Part shown: positions 5,174 through 64,000 of the stretch, one piece after another
Position numbering within the stretch: position 1 is the first letter of the stretch
Layout of the letters: each line of letters begins with the position of its first letter
Assembly (NCBI RefSeq): GCF_003097355.1
Contig: NZ_PYUI01000001.1
Coordinates: 434,001 to 498,000 of the forward strand
Reading direction: 5' to 3'
Source of the DNA: Arthrobacter sp. H-02-3
GTDB taxonomy: Bacteria > Actinomycetota > Actinomycetes > Actinomycetales > Micrococcaceae
DNA length: 64,000 nucleotides
Made by a program: the position numbers and the translations under genes
The notes under the pieces: model-generated
Database searches by the model: none
Told to the model about the DNA's origin: nothing
The model's input: the letters and a program-made list of their open reading frames with translations, nothing else

Positions 5174-6127
5174 GTGAGCAACGAAATCCCCGCCAAGGTA
5201 TCCGACGTCTTTGACCCCCAGCGGTGGCGCACCGTGTCCGGTTTCGACGACTTCCAGGACATGACCTACCACCGGCAGGTGGAGCGCTCCGCCGACGGAG
5301 AGGCGGTCCGGGACCTGCCCACCGTGCGCATCGCCTTCAACCGCCCCGAGGTCCGCAACGCCTTCCGGCCCGGCACCGTGGACGAGCTCTACCGGGCCAT
5401 GGACCACGCCCGGATGACCCCGGACGTGGCCACCGTGCTGCTCACCGGGAACGGCCCCTCCTCCAAAGACGGCGGCCACTCGTTCTGTTCGGGCGGCGAC
5501 CAGCGGATCCGCGGCCGCGACGGGTACCGCTACGCCGATGGGGAGACGAAGGAGTCCATCGACCCCGCCCGCGCCGGCCGGCTCCACATCCTGGAGGTCC
5601 AGCGGCTCATGCGCACCATGCCCAAGGTGGTGATCGCCGTCGTCAACGGCTGGGCAGCCGGCGGCGGGCATTCCCTCCACGTGGTCTCGGACCTCACCAT
5701 CGCCTCCCGCCAGCACGGCAAGTTCAAGCAGACCGACGCCACTGTGGGAAGCTTCGACGCCGGTTACGGCTCGGCCCTCCTGGCCCGTCAGATCGGCCAG
5801 AAGGCCGCCCGGGAAATCTTCTTCCTGGCCCGCGAATATTCCGCCGAAGACATGGTCCGGATGGGCGCGGTCAACGAGGCCGTGGACCACGAACGCCTCG
5901 AGGACGTCGCGCTGGAGTACGCCGCCGACATCGCCCGGCAGTCCCCGCAGGCCATCCGCATGCTCAAGTTCGCATTCAACCTGGCCGACGACGGCCTGGC
6001 CGGCCAGCAGGTCTTCGCCGGCGAAGCGACCCGTCTGGCCTACATGACCGACGAGGCCGTGGAAGGCAAGGAAGCCTTCCTCGAAAAGCGCGACCCCGAC
6101 TGGTCCAAATTCCCGTACTACTTCTAA
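5174..6127 (+). CDS. menB: 1,4-dihydroxy-2-naphthoyl-CoA synthase
   Basis: MenB (317 residues, crotonase fold) closes the second ring of the menaquinone head group from o-succinylbenzoyl-CoA. Diagnostic pieces are FCSGGDQRIRG (about 103-113), the oxyanion-hole stretch GWAAGGGHSLHVVSDL and TVGSFDAGYGS with the catalytic Asp region, ending in the conserved DWSKFPYYF. GTG 5174 is taken as start. The menE start lies 8 bp after the stop and menA follows, so menB-menE-menA look like one operon supplying quinone to the respiratory chain, fitting the cytochrome c maturation genes nearby. Confidence 0.95.
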   Translation: MSNEIPAKVSDVFDPQRWRTVSGFDDFQDMTYHRQVERSADGEAVRDLPTVRIAFNRPEVRNAFRPGTVDELYRAMDHARMTPDVATVLLTGNGPSSKDGGHSFCSGGDQRIRGRDGYRYADGETKESIDPARAGRLHILEVQRLMRTMPKVVIAVVNGWAAGGGHSLHVVSDLTIASRQHGKFKQTDATVGSFDAGYGSALLARQIGQKAAREIFFLAREYSAEDMVRMGAVNEAVDHERLEDVALEYAADIARQSPQAIRMLKFAFNLADDGLAGQQVFAGEATRLAYMTDEAVEGKEAFLEKRDPDWSKFPYYF

Positions 6128-52655: not shown

Positions 52656-54110
52656 ATGCACAGAATCCACTTTCACTTAGATGGCGCTGATGCCGCGCAT
52701 CTGCAGGGAGATCTGAGAATACCTGAGGGCACGCCTCTAATCATCGATGACGATTTGTTGTTCCAAGACTCCGATAAGAATCGTCCTTCTTGGATAGTCA
52801 ATGCATGGATAATAAATCGTTCCCACGAACCGAGGATATCCACTCGAACACTCAACATCTACCTAGGCGCCCTACTTGCCTGGCTAGTCTTCCTGCGCCG
52901 CAACGGCTTCGAACTCCTGGGAGATCGGGCCTCCCTTCAAGCAGCCCTAGGTCTATACGCCGACTTTCAACTGTCAGGTAAATGCAAAAGACGCTGGGCC
53001 AATTCCACATGGGACCTCAACATTACGTGCATATCAGAGTTTTATAAGTGGGCAATCTCAGAAAACTACGCGAAAGCGACACCTTTCACCTACGCAGAGA
53101 TTACGGTGTGGCGAGATGAAATACCCGTTGTGGTTTTACAAAACAACGCTAAACTGCCCATTCCCAAAGGTCACAGCACTATCAAATATCTCGGAGAAGA
53201 GTATCAACGAATATTGCTCAACACACTGGAGGGCCTTTCCCCTGACGGGAGCCAACCCGCAAAGACCAAAGCAAGGAACTTGGCGCGGAACAGCCTTCTA
53301 ACAAGGCTTCTGATTACGACCGGACTACGAAGTCAGGAACTGAATTTTCTAACCTCGTACGAGCTGCCTCATCTACCCCAAGAAAGGACGGATATGCCAA
53401 TCGAATTTTTTATACCTGGAACCATAACGAAGCGGGGAAGGCCACGTACTACTTGGATCGACTTCGACACACTGATGCAGGCGAAAGAGTATCTCCAATG
53501 GGAGAGAAGAATCGCGGCCAGCCGATCCACATGGACTCCAAAGGCAAAAACGGGTGGGCCGTTGCACGTGGAGGGTGCTGACACTTTGGGCGCAATAATC
53601 GACGGCGAACGCCGAAGCTGGTCAGAGGTGACATTGGAGGAGCGAGCCCGGCTGGTAGCGCCCGAAGGCGGCTCTTGCCTCCTGGCTCTCCAGAGCAACG
53701 GCGCTCCGTTTCGAGCGCTCGGCACAGTCCTCCGGCGAACAGCGGCGCAAATCGCGCTCGAATTCGATGAAAAGTTTCCACATGTGCGTCCGCACATGCT
53801 TCGTCACACTTTCGCCATGAACACTCTGGAGCGTCTCGTGCGTGGGTACTACGAAGCTGTCGCGAGAGTCTCATCGCGAACAAATCGGAACGCCGCATTG
53901 GCGCTCTACATGACGCGCCAGGACCCACTAATGGTTCTTCGGGATCTGCTGGGACACAGCTCTGTCACAACCACTCAGTTGTATCTCGATCGTCTAGATA
54001 CACGCCGGATCTTTGCTGACGCATTTGAGTCCGCTGAGTTGGATATGCACAGCGGCTCCGAAGCCATCCGCGACGAAGTTGAATCAGAGTTCCTAGAGGA
54101 GGATGGCTAG
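52656..54110 (+). CDS. Tyrosine recombinase, first of trio (TnpA-like)
   Basis: A 484-residue site-specific recombinase. SAM-like N-terminal domain (about 60-165) precedes the catalytic domain, which has ITTGLRSQELNF (Arg I, about 225), HMLRHTFAMN (HxxR plus His) and LLGHSSVTTTQLYLDR (His and nucleophile Tyr). All catalytic positions seem present, so this is the likely active cleaving subunit. Base composition is AT-richer than the host genes. The stop shares its G with the next gene's GTG. Confidence 0.9.
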   Translation: MHRIHFHLDGADAAHLQGDLRIPEGTPLIIDDDLLFQDSDKNRPSWIVNAWIINRSHEPRISTRTLNIYLGALLAWLVFLRRNGFELLGDRASLQAALGLYADFQLSGKCKRRWANSTWDLNITCISEFYKWAISENYAKATPFTYAEITVWRDEIPVVVLQNNAKLPIPKGHSTIKYLGEEYQRILLNTLEGLSPDGSQPAKTKARNLARNSLLTRLLITTGLRSQELNFLTSYELPHLPQERTDMPIEFFIPGTITKRGRPRTTWIDFDTLMQAKEYLQWERRIAASRSTWTPKAKTGGPLHVEGADTLGAIIDGERRSWSEVTLEERARLVAPEGGSCLLALQSNGAPFRALGTVLRRTAAQIALEFDEKFPHVRPHMLRHTFAMNTLERLVRGYYEAVARVSSRTNRNAALALYMTRQDPLMVLRDLLGHSSVTTTQLYLDRLDTRRIFADAFESAELDMHSGSEAIRDEVESEFLEEDG

Positions 54111-55831
54111 TGCCGGCCGTCTACTACGATGACCCGGTCTCCGTCCACTTCCTCTTTCCCGATGGGACAGAATGGATCGGGCGCTTCGAGGGAACCCCGA
54201 ACCCCGAGTTGGCCCAGGACTTGGCAAGGGGGCTGGCGTTGTTGGCTCATCCCCACGGCACAATTGCGAGTAAGTCTTCAGCCGAGAATCACGCGGTGAG
54301 CCTTCGGCGAATGGTGGAAGATACTTTCAAACTTGGTTTCCGTGGCCCCGCCAGAGACCTAACGCGGGAGATCGTCATACAGCATTGGCTATCCCGGCCG
54401 CACGCTCATGAGAGAAACACCCGGGCCCTACTCAGAGGGTTCGATTCCATAGCGGGCCAACTTGCGCCTGCGCTCCGTCTGCACCTGGGCGCAAGACAGA
54501 TTCACACGCGGCCGTCCACCGTCCCTTACAAGGCCTACAGCCAGCCCGAATGGGAACGACTTATGGACGCTTGTGAAGTCATAATCAACCGTTCCTGGCT
54601 GGCCCATAAGAGGCTGCTGCATGTCGCGCAGCGGGAAGACGACATAGACGGCCCCAGTGGAGAATACCTGGAGTGGCTTGCCGCAGTACACCTTCTCCGA
54701 ACGGGTCCTTCGACTGTCTTCGAGGTGCAGGAAGCACTGCGCCGGAAGGGGAGATCTGTGTCCGGTGCCACAATCGCGGCCGTGAGGCGGGCTCTCTTCA
54801 ATGACATAGAGATCCAGCTGGCCTATCGGCTGCGGCTGGGGATGCTCACGGGCGTCGTCCCGGATGGCATCGACAGACTGAAAGTACGTGACATTTCGTG
54901 GGTTAGCCCTCACGTTGCCAATATCAAGTACGTCAAAGGTCGTACGGGACCCGAGGGACTCACCCTTTCAAAGAACGCATCGAGACTGCTGGAGCAGTGG
55001 TTGGCGCACAGCGAGCCTCTTCGACGCCACGCTTCACCATCGCGTACCGAAGATCTTTGGATCGTCTGCGGTTCAAAGGCCCACGAAGACCGCATTTCAG
55101 GTCCCGCGTCTTTCGCAAACCACAGCGGGAAGATCACCGAGAAGTATGAGATTTTGGACGATCAAGGGATGCCTCTTCGACTTAATAGAGGACGCATTAG
55201 GGCCACCTACCTTACTCTCATGGCCAACAGGCACTGGAATGGTCGATCGACCATCGACCCCAACCACAGCGCAGCAGTCGAAGGGCGCCATTATTTGGCA
55301 AGCATCGACGACACATACGAACTGATGCTGACGGAGATAGTCGAAGAGGCTCAAACGGACATGCTGCGAAAGGGTGTGCCCGTGAATGTCTTGACTGATG
55401 AGGAGTTAGCACATTCAGGCTATGACTTTGCTGACGGCCTCAATGCCCACATGCCGTCTGACTCCACCGTTGAGCAGTTGCTGTCTGGAGAACAGGACGT
55501 CTTCTTAGCGTCATGTGCGAATCAACTTGCGAGTCCGTTCGGCGTAAAAGGTAAGGCGTGCGCAGCCAGAGTCTGGGTGTGCTTGTTATGTCCGCTCGCC
55601 GTCTTCTTACCGAGACACGCTGGAAATCTTCTTGAGTTGAAGGCGTTTTTTGCCCGTCAGTCGCGTCAACTTCCGATTCGGGAGTTCATGAGCATCTATG
55701 GTCCCTACGCCATCCGTTTGGATCAGGAGATTCTCCCCCGGTTCAGTCCAAAGGTACTGGAACTGGCATCTCTCGGCGTCACGGATCAGGACTATGCGCT
55801 GCCCTTGCGACCGGAGGAGGCAACCCGATGA
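54110..55831 (+). CDS. Tyrosine recombinase-like protein, second of trio, degenerate active site
   Basis: A 573-residue protein. The catalytic domain (about 235-440) is recognisable from LAYRLRLGMLTGVVPDGIDRLKVRDI, where TGVVPDG replaces the usual TGLRxxE so Arg I looks lost. RGRIRATYLTLMANRHW replaces HxxRH. NHSAAVEGRHYLA resembles the GHxxxxxTxxYL end. A Cys-rich segment near residue 480-510 (CANQLASPFGVKGKACAARVWVCLLC) suggests a metal site. It is probably a structural partner of the other two. GTG 54110 start. Confidence 0.78.
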   Translation: MPAVYYDDPVSVHFLFPDGTEWIGRFEGTPNPELAQDLARGLALLAHPHGTIASKSSAENHAVSLRRMVEDTFKLGFRGPARDLTREIVIQHWLSRPHAHERNTRALLRGFDSIAGQLAPALRLHLGARQIHTRPSTVPYKAYSQPEWERLMDACEVIINRSWLAHKRLLHVAQREDDIDGPSGEYLEWLAAVHLLRTGPSTVFEVQEALRRKGRSVSGATIAAVRRALFNDIEIQLAYRLRLGMLTGVVPDGIDRLKVRDISWVSPHVANIKYVKGRTGPEGLTLSKNASRLLEQWLAHSEPLRRHASPSRTEDLWIVCGSKAHEDRISGPASFANHSGKITEKYEILDDQGMPLRLNRGRIRATYLTLMANRHWNGRSTIDPNHSAAVEGRHYLASIDDTYELMLTEIVEEAQTDMLRKGVPVNVLTDEELAHSGYDFADGLNAHMPSDSTVEQLLSGEQDVFLASCANQLASPFGVKGKACAARVWVCLLCPLAVFLPRHAGNLLELKAFFARQSRQLPIREFMSIYGPYAIRLDQEILPRFSPKVLELASLGVTDQDYALPLRPEEATR

Positions 55832-57999
55832 CAAACGCTGCCCGGTTCGAGGCTCTTCATCCTCAAATCTCGCTGTTCGCTGGCGCTGATCTCTTTCAGT
55901 TGACAGGCCACGAGCACGAGCCAGGAGCAGTTCGACCATTATATGAAGACGACGTCTGGGACTGGAGGGGACTGAGCTTGGCCCCAAAAACCATGACGGA
56001 TAGGGAAAAGATCTGGGATTTTAGGCGGATTTCCAACCCGTCGTGGCGGTCGATGGCCAAAGATCTTCTACTTGCACTAATGGTTCCAAAGCACCCTGAC
56101 ATTGTGTTGATAGCTACCGCCCACCGGAGAATTTACGATCCTCGAACCATTTTCACGCGATTCTGTGGCCTCGTTCGGTGGTTTAACTGGCTCAGCTCCA
56201 TAGGAGTTGCGTCACTGCAGGCGGTAGATCAAGACGTTTGCGACCGGTACCTGAGGGTTGTCAGGGAAGGCCGCAACGGTCTGCGTCGCAAGAAACGCCG
56301 ATTGGTGTCAGGCAGTCTAGCCCAGTGGGTCGAGGCGGTTAGACTCCCCTACTGCTATGGCGATCTGTTCCCGGGAGACGCCTACAAGAAGGAGTTCTCA
56401 CCTTGGGGAGGTCGCCGGACGGCTGCAATCGTGGGGAAGCGAAATATCCGGATTAACAGCACGCCTCCCGTCCCCCAGGAAATACTCCAACCCTTGATTG
56501 GCAACTGCGCATACCTGATAGAGACGATCGCGCCATTAGTGCTGGACCTTCATCGCGAACGTTTGGCACACTTTCCCGTAAAACGTGGGGCCAGGAGCAT
56601 CGCAGCTAGTACCAGCGCAAAGCAAGACTTCGAGGCAGTAGTGGCTCTGTACGTGAAAGCGCACACGCCGCTGCCGCAACTCTCCGAATCCCTCGTTAGC
56701 CGGCGACTAGCAGGGAAGTGGGAATCGTCCGACCCGCTTCTTGCAGTCAACATCGATGCGCTATTTCGTGAGGCCGATATCGGAAGCTTTCACTGGGCGC
56801 ATCTTCCCCACATCAGGCACTCCTTAGAGGATGCGGTGGCAGACGTCGGGGTTGAGTACGCATGGGCCCGCGACGCAGTACTAGTGCAGAAGGCATCAAA
56901 CGACGGATTGGTGCCGTGGACCCTTCCTTTGTCGGAGAACGATCTGCACCGTTTGAACCACTATGTCTGTGGAGCGAGCATGGTGCTGACTGCCGCAATC
57001 ACCGGTATGCGGCCCAGCGAAATCGCGGAGCTGAGCACGAGGTCGCCGAGACCGGTTGTTCACCTCCCAGGAGGCGGAAAGCGCTTCATTTTGGGGAGCA
57101 AGATCATCAAACGCCGCCGTTTCGGTGGGGATCCCGACGAATGGGTCGTCCTCGAATCGGTCCACAAGGCAGTAGAAACCGCAGCTGAGCTGGCTTCCTT
57201 GGGAAAGGACCACATATTCGGGGCAGCCAACATCGGCTCATTCGTTGATAACTTCCGGTCGTGGCTTGCAGAACCCTTCGCGGTGAGACTCGGCCTCGCG
57301 CACATTCCTCCCGGTCCGGTAAACGGCCGCATGCTGAGACGTGCGTTATCAATCGAGATTGGCAATCGGCCATGGGGGCTCTTCGCAGCAAAGTACCATC
57401 TTAAACACGCCAGCGTCATTACGACGGAGGGCTATGTTGCCCGCCCTGGTGGGGCTCAGGCCCAGTTCAACAGGGAAGTGTTAGCCAGTGAGTCCGAGCA
57501 CAGGCTGCACCTTGCAAGACAGGCTGTCGACGACTACCGGGCAGGAAAAGTGCCAGCCGGTCCCGGCGCACGACAGCTCATTGAGCAGCTCAAACTCGCA
57601 GACGAGGCGCTCCGGCTGGAAGAGGTCGCCAGTCCAAAGGTAGTCAAGAGTGACCGAGCCGCGGAGAACATTATTCGCGAAATAGCGGCGGCACTCCATG
57701 TGAATGTGGCCAACTACTGCTTCTTCCGCGATCCGAAGCAAGCCCTCTGTCTCCGTCTGGCAGGCAAGACAGACGCGAAAGCGCCATTGACGGCAATGTG
57801 CGATTCTGCTCGATGTGGACAGGCCAGCTTCGGGCCCGAGCACCTCCAGATCTGGACCAACTACACAGCTAACACTGAAGCTCTCGCCCACAGCGTGGCG
57901 ACGGCGCCAGGGGAACGGATTCGACTCCGTCTCGAAGTCAAACGCGGCAAGGAAGTCATACGTCAGATCAAAGATTCAACGCGCGATCCCCAGAAGTGA
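55828..57999 (+). CDS. Tyrosine recombinase, third of trio (TnpB-like, Cys-rich end)
   Basis: A 723-residue protein. Its catalytic region has ITGMRPSEIAEL (Arg I), NGRMLRRALSIEIG (Arg II; the usual His is Arg) and LKHASVITTEGYV (His, Tyr). The C-terminus holds NYCFFRDPKQALCLR...MCDSARCG, a Cys-rich zinc-like site known from Tn554 TnpB-type proteins. It overlaps the preceding gene by ATGA. The size and end fit TnpB better than RitC. Confidence 0.82.
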   Translation: MTNAARFEALHPQISLFAGADLFQLTGHEHEPGAVRPLYEDDVWDWRGLSLAPKTMTDREKIWDFRRISNPSWRSMAKDLLLALMVPKHPDIVLIATAHRRIYDPRTIFTRFCGLVRWFNWLSSIGVASLQAVDQDVCDRYLRVVREGRNGLRRKKRRLVSGSLAQWVEAVRLPYCYGDLFPGDAYKKEFSPWGGRRTAAIVGKRNIRINSTPPVPQEILQPLIGNCAYLIETIAPLVLDLHRERLAHFPVKRGARSIAASTSAKQDFEAVVALYVKAHTPLPQLSESLVSRRLAGKWESSDPLLAVNIDALFREADIGSFHWAHLPHIRHSLEDAVADVGVEYAWARDAVLVQKASNDGLVPWTLPLSENDLHRLNHYVCGASMVLTAAITGMRPSEIAELSTRSPRPVVHLPGGGKRFILGSKIIKRRRFGGDPDEWVVLESVHKAVETAAELASLGKDHIFGAANIGSFVDNFRSWLAEPFAVRLGLAHIPPGPVNGRMLRRALSIEIGNRPWGLFAAKYHLKHASVITTEGYVARPGGAQAQFNREVLASESEHRLHLARQAVDDYRAGKVPAGPGARQLIEQLKLADEALRLEEVASPKVVKSDRAAENIIREIAAALHVNVANYCFFRDPKQALCLRLAGKTDAKAPLTAMCDSARCGQASFGPEHLQIWTNYTANTEALAHSVATAPGERIRLRLEVKRGKEVIRQIKDSTRDPQK

Positions 58000-60746: not shown

Positions 60747-61946
60747 TCACGCCCGCAACCCATAGGTGATGGCGATCTTCGGTCGCTGGGACAGGAGCAC
60801 TTCCAGTTTGCTGGCTGGCCACATCTCGATTTCCGGTTGCTTCCCGGTGACGTTGTGTTTATCCACGATAAGGACAGCATCAGCGCTGAATCTACTACTT
60901 GTCGCGATGATGAGGTACCGGATCACTGGTGGTTCCCACGTGGACAAACTCGCTAGAGACGACTGAATATCGATGGGGCTGACTGCCTTCGAGGTGTAAT
61001 GCTTTGCTTGCACAATCACGCGTTCTGTTCGGACGGTGCCGGAGGCGTCGGGGAACACTCGCTGAAGGGAGATGTCTCGCCCTCGATCCGGTGCATTGGT
61101 GTTCATTAGCCATTCGACATTTTGATACCCGTTTAGGTCCCTCAGGATGTCGAAAAGGAGCCGCTCAAAGCCCTCTGAGTTCAGCGCGGCCCAGTTCAAA
61201 GCCGTAGTGGCCTGACCTGTGAGTTGGGTGTTCCCTATCTCACCCAGGTCCACATCTGGAACAGGAACAGGATCCACCTCACCTATCTTCGCCGCCTCGA
61301 TGTCCGATTGAACCGATGGCCAGTCATCGATGGCTATGTCATGCCAGTCGTTGACTTCACCGAAGTGGAGGTGGCGGCGAAGTTCAGCCCACCTTCCTTT
61401 GCGTTCCACAGTCTGGCCGAGTAGACGCTCGACTTCAGCCAGGCAACTCTCTATTTCACTCACTTGGGGTGTTTCGATGCGAACCCTTGGCGCGGGCGGT
61501 GTCGCTATCCATTCATCCAGGGATGGGATACCGGCAACAACTTCTGCTACAAGCTGTGTCACCTGGTCGCTTAGCTCAGTCAGACGTGAAGCGATCACCT
61601 TACGTCGGGCGCGATCGAGGAGGTGGCGGTACTTCGCCAGGTCCTCGTTCGGTTGCTCGGAAAGGTCCCAGGCGTGACGGGGAAGTTCTCCGATATCGGC
61701 GTAGTCCAGGAAGAGTTGCCCGATCTCATTTGTGTCGGGCAATCCTGCTGTAATTTTCCAGCCATCAATGGGAGGCAAACCAGCGAGGAGGTCGTCCCAG
61801 TTGCGGGCGAGAGTGGTGTACTCCGGAGTTGTTCCAAAGGCAGGGCCAGTTGGTACGTGAGGTTGTGCTCTTTGCCAAACTCTCTCGAGTTTCTCAAGAT
61901 TGACGGCCACCTTATCGAAGGTCGCTAGAGCGTCTGCTAAGTCCAT
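60747..61946 (-). CDS. Mrr-family restriction endonuclease (type IV-like)
   Basis: A 399-residue protein. The N-terminal 230 residues are helical and charged, without a known domain. The C-terminal Mrr_cat domain (about 250-399) has ALNSEGFERLLFDILRDLNGYQ, DRGRDISL (metal-binding Asp) and VIVQAKHYTSKAV (QxK form of the PD-(D/E)xK signature). Such nucleases cut modified or foreign DNA. It stands beside hsdR and a recombinase module, the typical setting of a defence island. Confidence 0.82.
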   Translation of the reverse strand: MDLADALATFDKVAVNLEKLERVWQRAQPHVPTGPAFGTTPEYTTLARNWDDLLAGLPPIDGWKITAGLPDTNEIGQLFLDYADIGELPRHAWDLSEQPNEDLAKYRHLLDRARRKVIASRLTELSDQVTQLVAEVVAGIPSLDEWIATPPAPRVRIETPQVSEIESCLAEVERLLGQTVERKGRWAELRRHLHFGEVNDWHDIAIDDWPSVQSDIEAAKIGEVDPVPVPDVDLGEIGNTQLTGQATTALNWAALNSEGFERLLFDILRDLNGYQNVEWLMNTNAPDRGRDISLQRVFPDASGTVRTERVIVQAKHYTSKAVSPIDIQSSLASLSTWEPPVIRYLIIATSSRFSADAVLIVDKHNVTGKQPEIEMWPASKLEVLLSQRPKIAITYGLRA

Positions 61947-62101
61947 GGTTAGAGTCTAGGCACAGAGATCAAAGAATGAGTTTGCAGCGGCAAAACGACC
62001 GATATCTTGAGTCCCCTCTTAGTCGGTGCCTTGATGGCGCGACACATCTGATGTGGAGAGTGTCCTCGACGCACCTTGCACAAGGTCTGCCAAGCCCAAA
62101 G

Positions 62102-62136
62102 GAAGAGGCACGGAACCACTGGTTCCGTGCCTCTTC
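62102..62136 (-). terminator. Strong terminator of the permuted-tRNA transcript
   Basis: GAAGAGGCACGGAACC and GGTTCCGTGCCTCTTC form a perfect 16-bp stem with a 3-nt loop, followed on the minus strand by CTTT. It lies 22 nt beyond the last tRNA half and closes the transcript begun at the promoter 62428-62456. A small ACACAC/GTGTGT hairpin precedes it. Confidence 0.85.
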
Positions 62137-62157
62137 TTACACACGAAGGTGTGTCAC

Positions 62158-62237
62158 AGGAGACAGCTGCTCTACCAACTGAGCTACGCCCCCATGAATG
62201 TGGAGGCGAGGGGACTCGAACCCCCGACACACTGTTT
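62158..62237 (-). tRNA. Circularly permuted tRNA gene, unit 2
   Basis: Minus-strand order is 3' half then 5' half. 3' half (62237-62201): loop AA, anticodon 3' stem ACAGT, variable GTGTC, T arm GGGGG-TTCGAGT-CCCCT, acceptor CGCCTCC, A73. Linker CATTCAT (62200-62194). 5' half (62193-62158): GGGGGCG, TA, D arm GCTC-AGTTGGTA-GAGC, A26, anticodon 5' stem GCTGT, loop CTCCT. Rejoined it is 37+36=73 nt. The anticodon stem GCTGT/ACAGT pairs (four Watson-Crick, one G-U), the loop would be CT-CCT-AA, and the acceptor stem has G3-U70. CCA is not encoded. Read as a linear tRNA no anticodon stem forms at normal length. Confidence 0.72.
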
Positions 62238-62240
62238 TGT

Positions 62241-62285
62241 GAGCAATCCGGTCACGAGCCGGCGGGAAACTCTCTTCCCTTGCCC
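62241..62285 (-). ncRNA. Structured leader of permuted tRNA unit 2
   Basis: GGGCAA (62285-62280) pairs with TTGCTC (62246-62241), enclosing GGGAA-GAGAG-TTTCCC and CCGG-CTCGTGA-CCGG. The leader of unit 1 has the same plan with different stem sequences. It ends 3 nt before the tRNA 3' half. Confidence 0.6.
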
Positions 62286-62292
62286 TATCTAA

Positions 62293-62372
62293 ATCAGACA
62301 AACGCTCTACCAACTGAGCTACGCCCCCATGAATGTGGAGGCGAGGGGACTCGAACCCCCGACCTTTTGTTT
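62293..62372 (-). tRNA. Circularly permuted tRNA gene, unit 1
   Basis: Minus-strand order is 3' half then 5' half. 3' half (62372-62336): AA, anticodon 3' stem ACAAA, variable AGGTC, T arm GGGGG-TTCGAGT-CCCCT, acceptor CGCCTCC, A73. Linker CATTCAT (62335-62329). 5' half (62328-62293): GGGGGCG, TA, D arm GCTC-AGTTGGTA-GAGC, G26, anticodon 5' stem TTTGT, loop CTGAT. Rejoined: 37+36=73 nt, anticodon stem TTTGT/ACAAA with five Watson-Crick pairs, loop CT-GAT-AA (anticodon GAT), G3-U70 and A73 in the acceptor. The body equals unit 2, while stem, position 26, variable loop and anticodon differ. It is the first tRNA after the promoter, so there is no earlier 5' half to pair with. Confidence 0.75.
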
Positions 62373-62375
62373 AGT

Positions 62376-62416
62376 GAGCAACTGAGTCATGAACCCGGGA
62401 ACTTTCTTCCTTGCCC
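62376..62416 (-). ncRNA. Structured leader of permuted tRNA unit 1
   Basis: GGGCAA (62416-62411) pairs with TTGCTC (62381-62376) around GGAA-GAAAG-TTCC and GGGTT-CAT-GACTC (with G-U pairs). Same closing helix and hairpin order as at 62241-62285, with shared TTGCTCAC before the tRNA 3' half. It starts a few nt after the expected transcription start. Confidence 0.6.
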
Positions 62417-62427
62417 TAATACACTCT

Positions 62428-62456
62428 ATTCTACCACAATGTCAAGTCTTTTTCAA
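62428..62456 (-). promoter_or_regulatory. Sigma-A-type promoter of the permuted-tRNA unit
   Basis: On the minus strand TTGAAA (62456-62451), 17-bp spacer, TAGAAT (62433-62428); expected start near 62421. A second overlapping candidate is TTGACA (62445-62440), 17 bp, GTATTA (62422-62417). The local AT-rich context stands out in this GC-rich genome. It lies between hsdR and the tRNA halves. Confidence 0.75.
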
Positions 62457-62609
62457 GTCGTTGTCACTAACATGTGAAAATCTTTTGCGTGTCCTACCTG
62501 CGACAATCAGAAACGACCATTGGTGATCCGATCCGCAGCCGCCGGTCTACGCCCAAGCGCCTCCGCAGTTGGCTGCGCAAAAGCGCAGGCCGCATCCGCG
62601 ATGGTTGCC

Positions 62610-64000
62610 CTAATAGTTCTCTGATACGTAGGCGTAGGCGTGATCGAAAAGCTCACCGGAAGCAGGCAGCCCGTAGCGGACTAGGACTTTGCGGATAGCG
62701 ATGCGCACCGCTCGGTCGCCTTCTTTAGAGTTATTCCAGCCGTCCCACCGGACTTCCTTCACAATTGCGTCGATGTCGGCGACAACCTTGCCGACGATGA
62801 CAGGAACGCCCTCGGGCTTGTACTCCTCGAAGATCTGCGTCAGGGCCCCAACATTCGGATCGGGCAATAGGTCCAGGCCAGCGGTTCCTGAGGTGTCTTC
62901 CGCCTTTTCCGCTGCGGCCAGGTCTCGGGCCAAATCCAGAAGGTCGCGCAGGAAGTCCACCGAGTCTTGGGCCTTAGCCAGCTGGCGTTCCCGCAGGCGG
63001 TCCAGTCGCTCGGACAGGCTCTTGTAGGCCGGGTGGGTGCCGTTGCCGCCTTCGAGCCGTTTACGCAGCCTCGAGGCGATGTTGTCCACGACTTCGGCGG
63101 CGGTCGTCACCTGCGTGTCCCCACTGCCGGCGTCTGGGTTGATCACTCCCGCCTCGATGAGCCTCTTGATCGTCCCCTCGTCGGCGATGACGACGTCTAC
63201 GCCAGTATCGCTGACGGTAACTTCGCCGATGTGGCCGTGGACGAGCTCCAGGGTTTTTGCGCCAAGCCGGCGCCAGAGCAGGTCCCGGGTGTCATCGGAG
63301 GGCGCCACCGAGGCGTAAACCTTTGACAACCACTTGTAGTCTGCCCGGTGCTGCTCCAGGCGCAGGTCCGGATAGGCAGCTTCCCAGATGCCCTGGAGCA
63401 TGCCGTACTGAGCCGCGAAGCGTTCCAGCGCCTTGTCATCGGGCAGCCGGTCGTGGGCGGCCTGAAGTGCTTCGAAGCCATTGCTGTCGCGGTCGATGCC
63501 GGCGAAGCGATCCAGAACGTTGGCGATCTCGATCTCGAACTGTTCCAGGAGCGAATCCGTTTCGATTTCCTTGCGGGCGTGCTCCGGGTTGGCAGGAGAC
63601 ATCGCCCGGGCGAAGCCGTCGCCGAGCCCGACATAGTCCACGATGAGGCCATAGCGCTTTTCTTGCGCCGTCACCGGGTTCTTCCAGTTCCGATTGGTTC
63701 GAGTGATCGTCTGGTACAGCGTGTGTAGCTTCATCGGCTTATCCAGATACATGACGCCCTCTATGGGAGCGTCGAAGCCGGTGCCAAGCTTGGAGGTGAC
63801 CACAAGGAACTTCAGCGGGTCCCCGAGCTGGCGGAACCGGTTGAGGATGGCCTCTTCCTTGTCATCGGTGAGCTTGTACTGCTGCCAGTCAGAGTCGTCT
63901 TTAGACTGGATGGACATTATGACAGCCGACTCATCAGGCGTGGCACCATCTCTGGTGCGAGCCTGCAGCTGCCTGGTGAGCTCATCCTGATACGCGACGC
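62610..64000 (-). CDS. hsdR: Type I restriction enzyme R subunit (HsdR), C-terminal part
   Basis: The frame is open from the window edge to TAG at 62612-62610, more than 460 residues. LKFLVVTSKLGTGFDAPIEGVMYLDKPMKLHTLYQTITRTNRN is helicase motifs V-VI of the HsdR translocase. GLIVDYVGLGDGFARAM and the long helical C-terminal domain follow. HsdR cuts DNA after ATP-driven translocation together with HsdM/HsdS, which must lie beyond the window. It is the last gene of its operon, 154 bp before the permuted-tRNA promoter on the same strand. Confidence 0.93.
   Translation of the reverse strand, partial: VAYQDELTRQLQARTRDGATPDESAVIMSIQSKDDSDWQQYKLTDDKEEAILNRFRQLGDPLKFLVVTSKLGTGFDAPIEGVMYLDKPMKLHTLYQTITRTNRNWKNPVTAQEKRYGLIVDYVGLGDGFARAMSPANPEHARKEIETDSLLEQFEIEIANVLDRFAGIDRDSNGFEALQAAHDRLPDDKALERFAAQYGMLQGIWEAAYPDLRLEQHRADYKWLSKVYASVAPSDDTRDLLWRRLGAKTLELVHGHIGEVTVSDTGVDVVIADEGTIKRLIEAGVINPDAGSGDTQVTTAAEVVDNIASRLRKRLEGGNGTHPAYKSLSERLDRLRERQLAKAQDSVDFLRDLLDLARDLAAAEKAEDTSGTAGLDLLPDPNVGALTQIFEEYKPEGVPVIVGKVVADIDAIVKEVRWDGWNNSKEGDRAVRIAIRKVLVRYGLPASGELFDHAYAYVSENY

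Follow-up and report, generated by a model that had tools for sequence, protein, structure and literature searches.

Permuted tRNA-like RNAs in Arthrobacter: candidate tRNA mimics whose relatives adjoin a predicted HEPN ribonuclease gene

Does a bacterial locus in which the halves of a tRNA stand in reversed order encode tRNAs, or an RNA that imitates them? The question is raised by two units on the minus strand of a 64,000-nucleotide stretch of Arthrobacter sp. H-02-3 (contig NZ_PYUI01000001.1, positions 434,001 to 498,000; hereafter the window), in each of which the 3' half of a tRNA comes first, followed by the linker CATTCAT and then the 5' half. The original prediction read these units as circularly permuted tRNA genes. 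The obtained results showed that the permutation is real and conserved, and that the identity as tRNA genes is unsupported. We favour, with a probability of roughly 55%, the reading that the RNA is a tRNA mimic, likely a decoy that restrains predicted HEPN-type ribonucleases, rather than a source of tRNA.

Both units were located where they had been predicted, with the linkers starting at 62335 and 62200; the coordinates of all features are collected in Table 1. When the halves were joined, each unit gave 73 nucleotides (nt) with a 5-nt variable loop and complete stems (acceptor 7/7, D 4/4, anticodon 5/5 and T stem 5/5 pairs), a count that presumes a 7-nt anticodon loop. These elements of the original prediction were confirmed for both units, and ARAGORN identified no ordinary tRNAs in the window. 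A feature that the prediction had missed is a three-way junction ahead of each 3' half, which is conserved and belongs to the same unit as the permuted fold. The transcript would therefore run, as predicted from this layout, through junction, 3' half, linker and 5' half, twice in succession, and then into the terminator.

Relatives of the units were sought by BLAST in plasmids and 99 related genomes, and by scanning 206 genomes of the genus with a covariance model (R1). Because the R1 scan was limited to 16 candidates in each genome, the six genomes in which it found units are a lower bound. Seven further loci were obtained, likely all from Arthrobacter. Five were in the genomes G023 and G231 (two units each) and G041, G128 and G021 (one unit each), and two were on the Arthrobacter plasmids FW306-05-C (two units) and pA58H3 (one unit). 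Together with the window, the stand-alone set comprised 12 units at eight loci, with linkers of 6-10 nt. The covariation first noted between the two window units was extended to an alignment of 11 of these units from all 8 loci; unit 2 of G231, which the search did not return, was left out. In this alignment, 96.9% of the cells paired (83.5% in shuffles) and 18 of 36 pairs changed on both sides (9.0 in shuffles), values that are biased towards the model to which the alignment was fitted. When the pairing partners were slid by 1-3 columns, pairing fell to 42.7-57.8%.

A second covariance model, R2, was built from 11 stand-alone units. Among its matches were L066 and L067, which come from other families of the order and contain no ordinary tRNA; these two loci share a homologous convergent gene at 34% identity. 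The search with the protein of this partner gene returned 5 of 396 genomes of the order, 3 of 204 genomes of the genus, 3 plasmid records and 1 of 282 genomes of the class. At all 12 partner loci examined, R2 matched beside the partner gene, and RNA and gene were convergent, with a gap of -3 to 50 nt. Demequina activiva has one such partner-linked pair. None of these 12 RNAs had been used to build R2; 95.6% of their cells paired and 28 of 36 pairs changed on both sides, again in an alignment that was fitted to the model and is hence biased towards it. The corresponding slid controls paired in 33.3-49.2%.

The RNAs beside the HEPN-like genes also carry the three-way junction. Its P3 loop has C at position 3 in 12/12 stand-alone units and in all 11 partner-linked RNAs tallied, and U at position 2 in 12/12 and 10/11, respectively; the positions that follow are mostly R-Y-R-A, giving the consensus pyrimidine-U-C-R-Y-R-A. 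This loop appears to resemble an anticodon loop with U33. The acceptor stem is closed by a loop of 3-5 nt, for example GGAG, GAAA or GAAT, in nine of the 12 partner-linked RNAs, and such members of the family can therefore hardly yield tRNA ends. In the other three (L106, L112 and L115), the acceptor loop has 7-8 nt.

The three partner-positive genomes of the genus (G011, G017 and G167) are not among the six with stand-alone units, and their RNAs, which the R1 scan did not list, surfaced through the protein search. Among the genus genomes listed in that search, G000 and G021, both of which carry stand-alone units, were negative. A HEPN-like partner gene was not found in the host genome of the window RNA, and the partner protein was not found in viral contigs and phages. 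The window copy is best read as a stand-alone tandem cassette whose genome lacks the partner gene. At one partner locus, the Mycolicibacterium arabiense plasmid pJCM18538 (L112), gene and RNA adjoin genes annotated as a cyclase and a Pycsar effector.

The partner protein has about 280 residues, and 36 relatives were retrieved from a protein database search. The residues R144, N145 and H149 (RNx3H) were invariant in 36/36 rows; in an upstream Ex3[KR] motif, E88 was present in 35/36 rows and K or R at +4 in 34/36. In the predicted structure (predicted local distance difference test score 93.5), RNx3H lies at the end of helix 131-149. The HEPN ribonuclease site is described in PMC3710099 as Rx4-6H with N, D or H after the R, located at the end of helix 3 and accompanied by an upstream Ex3[KR]. 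Because the RNx3H at a helix end and the upstream Ex3[KR] fit this rule, the partner protein is predicted to be a HEPN ribonuclease. Foldseek with the partner model returned nothing at 0.001, and a second fold comparison had Roquin and the prophage protein HepS as its top matches. With the HEPN anticodon nucleases PrrC and RloC (PMC3710099) and with HepS, the partner shares RNx3H at a helix end, defence-like neighbourhoods and tRNA as the likely substrate. Unlike them, it is a small protein of its own with an RNA as its counterpart, and it has no sequence relative among PDB chains at E 1 and no match in PADLOC. A search of the open-licence literature gave no report that pairs a HEPN protein with a tRNA-like antitoxin RNA, and none on HepS.

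As a tRNA mimic, the RNA would bind the predicted HEPN ribonuclease in the place of tRNA. The partner protein would act on tRNA, the P3 loop would stand for the anticodon loop, and the RNA would shield the tRNA of the cell or block the nuclease, like the RNA antitoxins of type III and AbiF-like systems. In the two-gene loci, the RNA would serve as antitoxin, and the partner-less tandem copies on Arthrobacter plasmids and islands would be stand-alone antitoxins or anti-defence decoys. A tentative extension, to which we give less than even odds, is a new defence or toxin-antitoxin module in which a HEPN anticodon nuclease would be checked by a permuted tRNA mimic with a false anticodon loop on its junction, the partner-less tandem copies being mobile anti-defence decoys. 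If true, such a module would contain an RNA antitoxin shaped like the likely substrate of its toxin, in a permuted fold without a free acceptor end. It would further connect tRNA-cleaving defence with type III toxin-antitoxin systems and with bacterial Y RNAs, and one could test whether mobile elements bring tRNA decoys to counter this defence. Caution is also advised, as bacterial genes of permuted tRNA-like shape need not encode tRNAs.

Two sets of observations speak for a tRNA product. The stand-alone units retain the 7-base-pair acceptor stem, A73, the 5-base-pair anticodon stem and U33, the last in 12/12 units. Of the 12 stand-alone units, 11 were joined, and ARAGORN called all 11 as tRNAs (five as Trp, four as Ile, one as Tyr and one as Val), with the joint at 35|36 picked by the analyst.

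AbiF with its RNA RCd22 is the nearest working precedent (PMC12373285). AbiF and type III toxin-antitoxin systems share several features with the loci studied here, namely a structured RNA beside a nuclease-like protein and repeated RNA motifs and, for AbiF, a HEPN-type protein. In contrast to these systems, the RNA here would be a tRNA mimic, and the partner is convergent and has no confident Pfam match (only E 0.02-0.1). The convergent order at every partner locus differs from the antitoxin repeats placed upstream in the toxin operon of type III systems, and tandem repeats occur only in four stand-alone loci. An RNA beside a nuclease-like gene, which characterises type III systems, was seen at the partner loci but not at the window.

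Table 1. Features of the window RNA and its surroundings on the minus strand.
Feature	Position	Strand	Basis or remark
RNA pair overall	62154-62416	minus	two tandem units
Promoter-like site TTGAAA-17-TAGAAT, upstream of unit 1	62428-62456	minus	1 found, 0.3 expected in shuffles
Unit 1 three-way junction: P1 GGGCAA/TTGCTC, P2 GGAA/TTCC, P3 with 7-nt loop TTCATGA	62376-62416	minus	fold, covariation
Unit 1 tRNA 3' half: anticodon-stem 3' strand, variable loop, T arm, acceptor 3' strand, A73	62336-62370	minus	
Unit 1 linker CATTCAT, caps the acceptor stem	62329-62335	minus	fold
Unit 1 tRNA 5' half: acceptor 5' strand, D arm, anticodon-stem 5' strand, CTGA	62294-62328	minus	
Unit 2 three-way junction: P1 GGGCAA/TTGCTC, P2 GGGAA/TTCCC, P3 CCGG/CCGG with loop CTCGTGA	62241-62285	minus	fold
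Unit 2 tRNA 3' half	62201-62235	minus	
Unit 2 linker CATTCAT	62194-62200	minus	fold
Unit 2 tRNA 5' half, last letters CTCC	62159-62193	minus	
Small hairpin ACACAC-CTTC-GTGTGT, 3' of the last 5' half	62139-62154	minus	fold
Terminator-like long hairpin with short T run	62098-62138	minus	fold; homology to G023 and G231 ends here

Bacterial Y RNAs have a long end stem and a Ro60-binding stem, and they work with Ro60. The window RNA could be a scaffold of this kind, whose tRNA-like part would bind PNPase or another tRNA-binding protein as Y RNAs bind Ro60; we regard this as unlikely. The permuted tRNA-like topology is common to both. The bacterial Y RNAs of the YrlA family (RF02553) have the T arm, acceptor hairpin and D arm in permuted order, and a loop caps their acceptor (UUCG in one Streptomyces Y RNA). 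The statement in the original prediction that permuted transfer-messenger RNA (tmRNA) was the one established bacterial case was accordingly too wide. The Rfam YrlA model, whose gathering score is 69, gives the window units 38.3 and 34.8 bits, and the Streptomyces Y RNAs beside TROVE genes only 38-41. An ordinary tandem tRNA-Asn pair (L060) also reaches 40.9 bits with this model, so a score of 38 bits carries little information, and the YrlA match was dropped as proof of a Y RNA. Two loci that likely belong to Streptomyces (L057, 1264-1629, and L059, 1501-1866) each hold two Y-RNA-like units upstream of a TROVE gene, below the YrlA gathering score. Ro60 (TROVE) is absent from the host of the window RNA and was found in 0/6 genomes with stand-alone units. 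No Ro60-binding stem was seen, and the three-way junction, which replaces the long end stem, is foreign to YrlA.

True circularly permuted tRNA genes would require cuts at the linker and in the anticodon loop and the joining of the halves into a 73-nt tRNA. This reading, which we consider quite improbable, draws on the full covarying cloverleaf, on the joined length and on the retained U33 and ARAGORN calls described above. It also has precedents in algae and an archaeon, where the 3' half likewise precedes the 5' half and a linker joins the acceptor ends (PMC3978253). The RNA here differs from these genes in its three-way junction, in its relatives with a capped acceptor and in a host that lacks RtcB.

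The G3-U70 pair is an alanine identity element of tRNAs. It is present together with A73 in 9/12 stand-alone units, and is missing in the other 3/12. An alanine mark combined with Trp, Ile or Tyr anticodons would mistranslate. The RtcB ligase was not found in the host genome, in which other ligases were not searched for, and RtcB is present in 3/6 genomes carrying stand-alone units. An A-rich stretch ahead of the anticodon stem recurs in many partner-linked RNAs and so does not mark an anticodon loop. As for a bulge-helix-bulge splice motif at the joint, the short helices below the anticodon stem, seen by eye as CTAA/TTAG in unit 1 and CACA/TGTG in unit 2, appear not to be kept, being broken or unclear by eye in unit 1 of G023 and unit 1 of pFW306. 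The identity as tRNA genes is therefore unsupported: the unit holds a conserved junction that would be superfluous in a tRNA gene, relatives of the same architecture adjoin a predicted HEPN protein and mostly have short acceptor loops, the host and three of the six stand-alone genomes are without RtcB, and the Trp, Ile, Tyr and Val calls clash with G3-U70 in most units.

An alanylated tmRNA-like RNA, whose acceptor would be opened by RNase P and trimming and charged by AlaRS for a role inside or outside translation, is very improbable. The frequent G3-U70 with A73 would suit it, and the Rfam model of permuted tmRNA (RF04321), which likewise has its tRNA-like part in permuted order, partly matches each window unit. 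The match of 27.4 bits lies under the gathering threshold of 47 and covers only positions 36-95 of 213, no tag reading frame was recognised, three units are without G3-U70, and the partner-linked RNAs have no open acceptor.

A reading in conventional order, as an ordinary tRNA gene that has gained an insert or as what is left of a tandem array, is extremely improbable: the Rfam tRNA model does match the window solely in that order (62328-62201, 52.8 bits, with a 53-nt insert), but at the four two-unit loci the conventional combination of the unit 1 5' half with the unit 2 3' half pairs in only 34/48 pairs against 94/96 for the permuted order, it is refuted where the two acceptor stems of a locus differ (for example GGGGGCG/CGCCTCC and GGCTCTG/CGGAGCC), each stem always matching inside its own permuted unit, and the single-unit loci G128, G041 and pA58H3 have their own promoter and terminator.

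The original prediction had placed the units between a promoter and a terminator. The promoter-like site stood, and G128 has TTGACA-17-TAAGAT at the matching position; the terminator is a hairpin with a short T run, and the consensus terminator scan listed none at the RNA. A small hairpin is found in G023, G041 and pA58H3 where the window has its own after the 5' half. The BLAST homology around the RNA spans 62098-62460 (G023 and G231) or 62035-62518 (G128), and its limits fall near the promoter and terminator of the window RNA. An all-against-all comparison of the flanking open reading frames (ORFs) of the stand-alone loci identified no common protein, with only one plasmid pair (ParA-like neighbours) and weak distant pairs. 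Given these limits and the lack of shared flanking ORFs, the RNA is a portable cassette of about 360 base pairs.

The window RNA is flanked on one side by an Mrr-type restriction endonuclease gene (60747-61946, minus strand) and on the other by the end of a type I restriction R subunit gene (62610-63917, minus strand). Three consecutive ORFs of 484, 573 and 723 residues, with overlapping or adjoining ends, lie at 52656-57999 on the plus strand. The 484-residue ORF, the first of them, matches Phage_integrase and the other two have no Pfam match; they are perhaps the recombinase trio of a mobile island.

Several candidates were rejected. A high R2 score was dropped as proof, as a phylum scan gave matches in 35 of 396 genomes at 1e-8 and 11 of the 14 scanned loci contained ordinary tRNAs; the other three were L057 and L059, beside TROVE genes, and L065. 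Four loci with matches of about 37 bits in the genus scan were checked (L031, L032, L036 and L037), and all proved to be ordinary tRNAs; a Peribacillus plasmid held an ordinary tRNA array. Pattern scans gave one genome contig, the G041 locus, one viral contig at 20.6 bits and a set of 31 viral contigs, of which L074 alone matched R2, at ordinary tRNAs. Two loci with a permuted tRNA-like stretch that lacks the three-way junction, and without tRNAs called by ARAGORN, were excluded from the counts. On the Nocardia farcinica plasmid pNF2 (L101, about 5990-6110), the stretch has G3-U70 and A73-CCA and is accompanied by a promoter-like site and a terminator-like hairpin. In G693 (L068, 1501-1700), a single permuted unit carries G3-U70 and a CAAG/CTTG helix below the anticodon stem. 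The L065 locus in G292 also has a permuted tRNA-like stretch (1496-1604), with no ordinary tRNAs.
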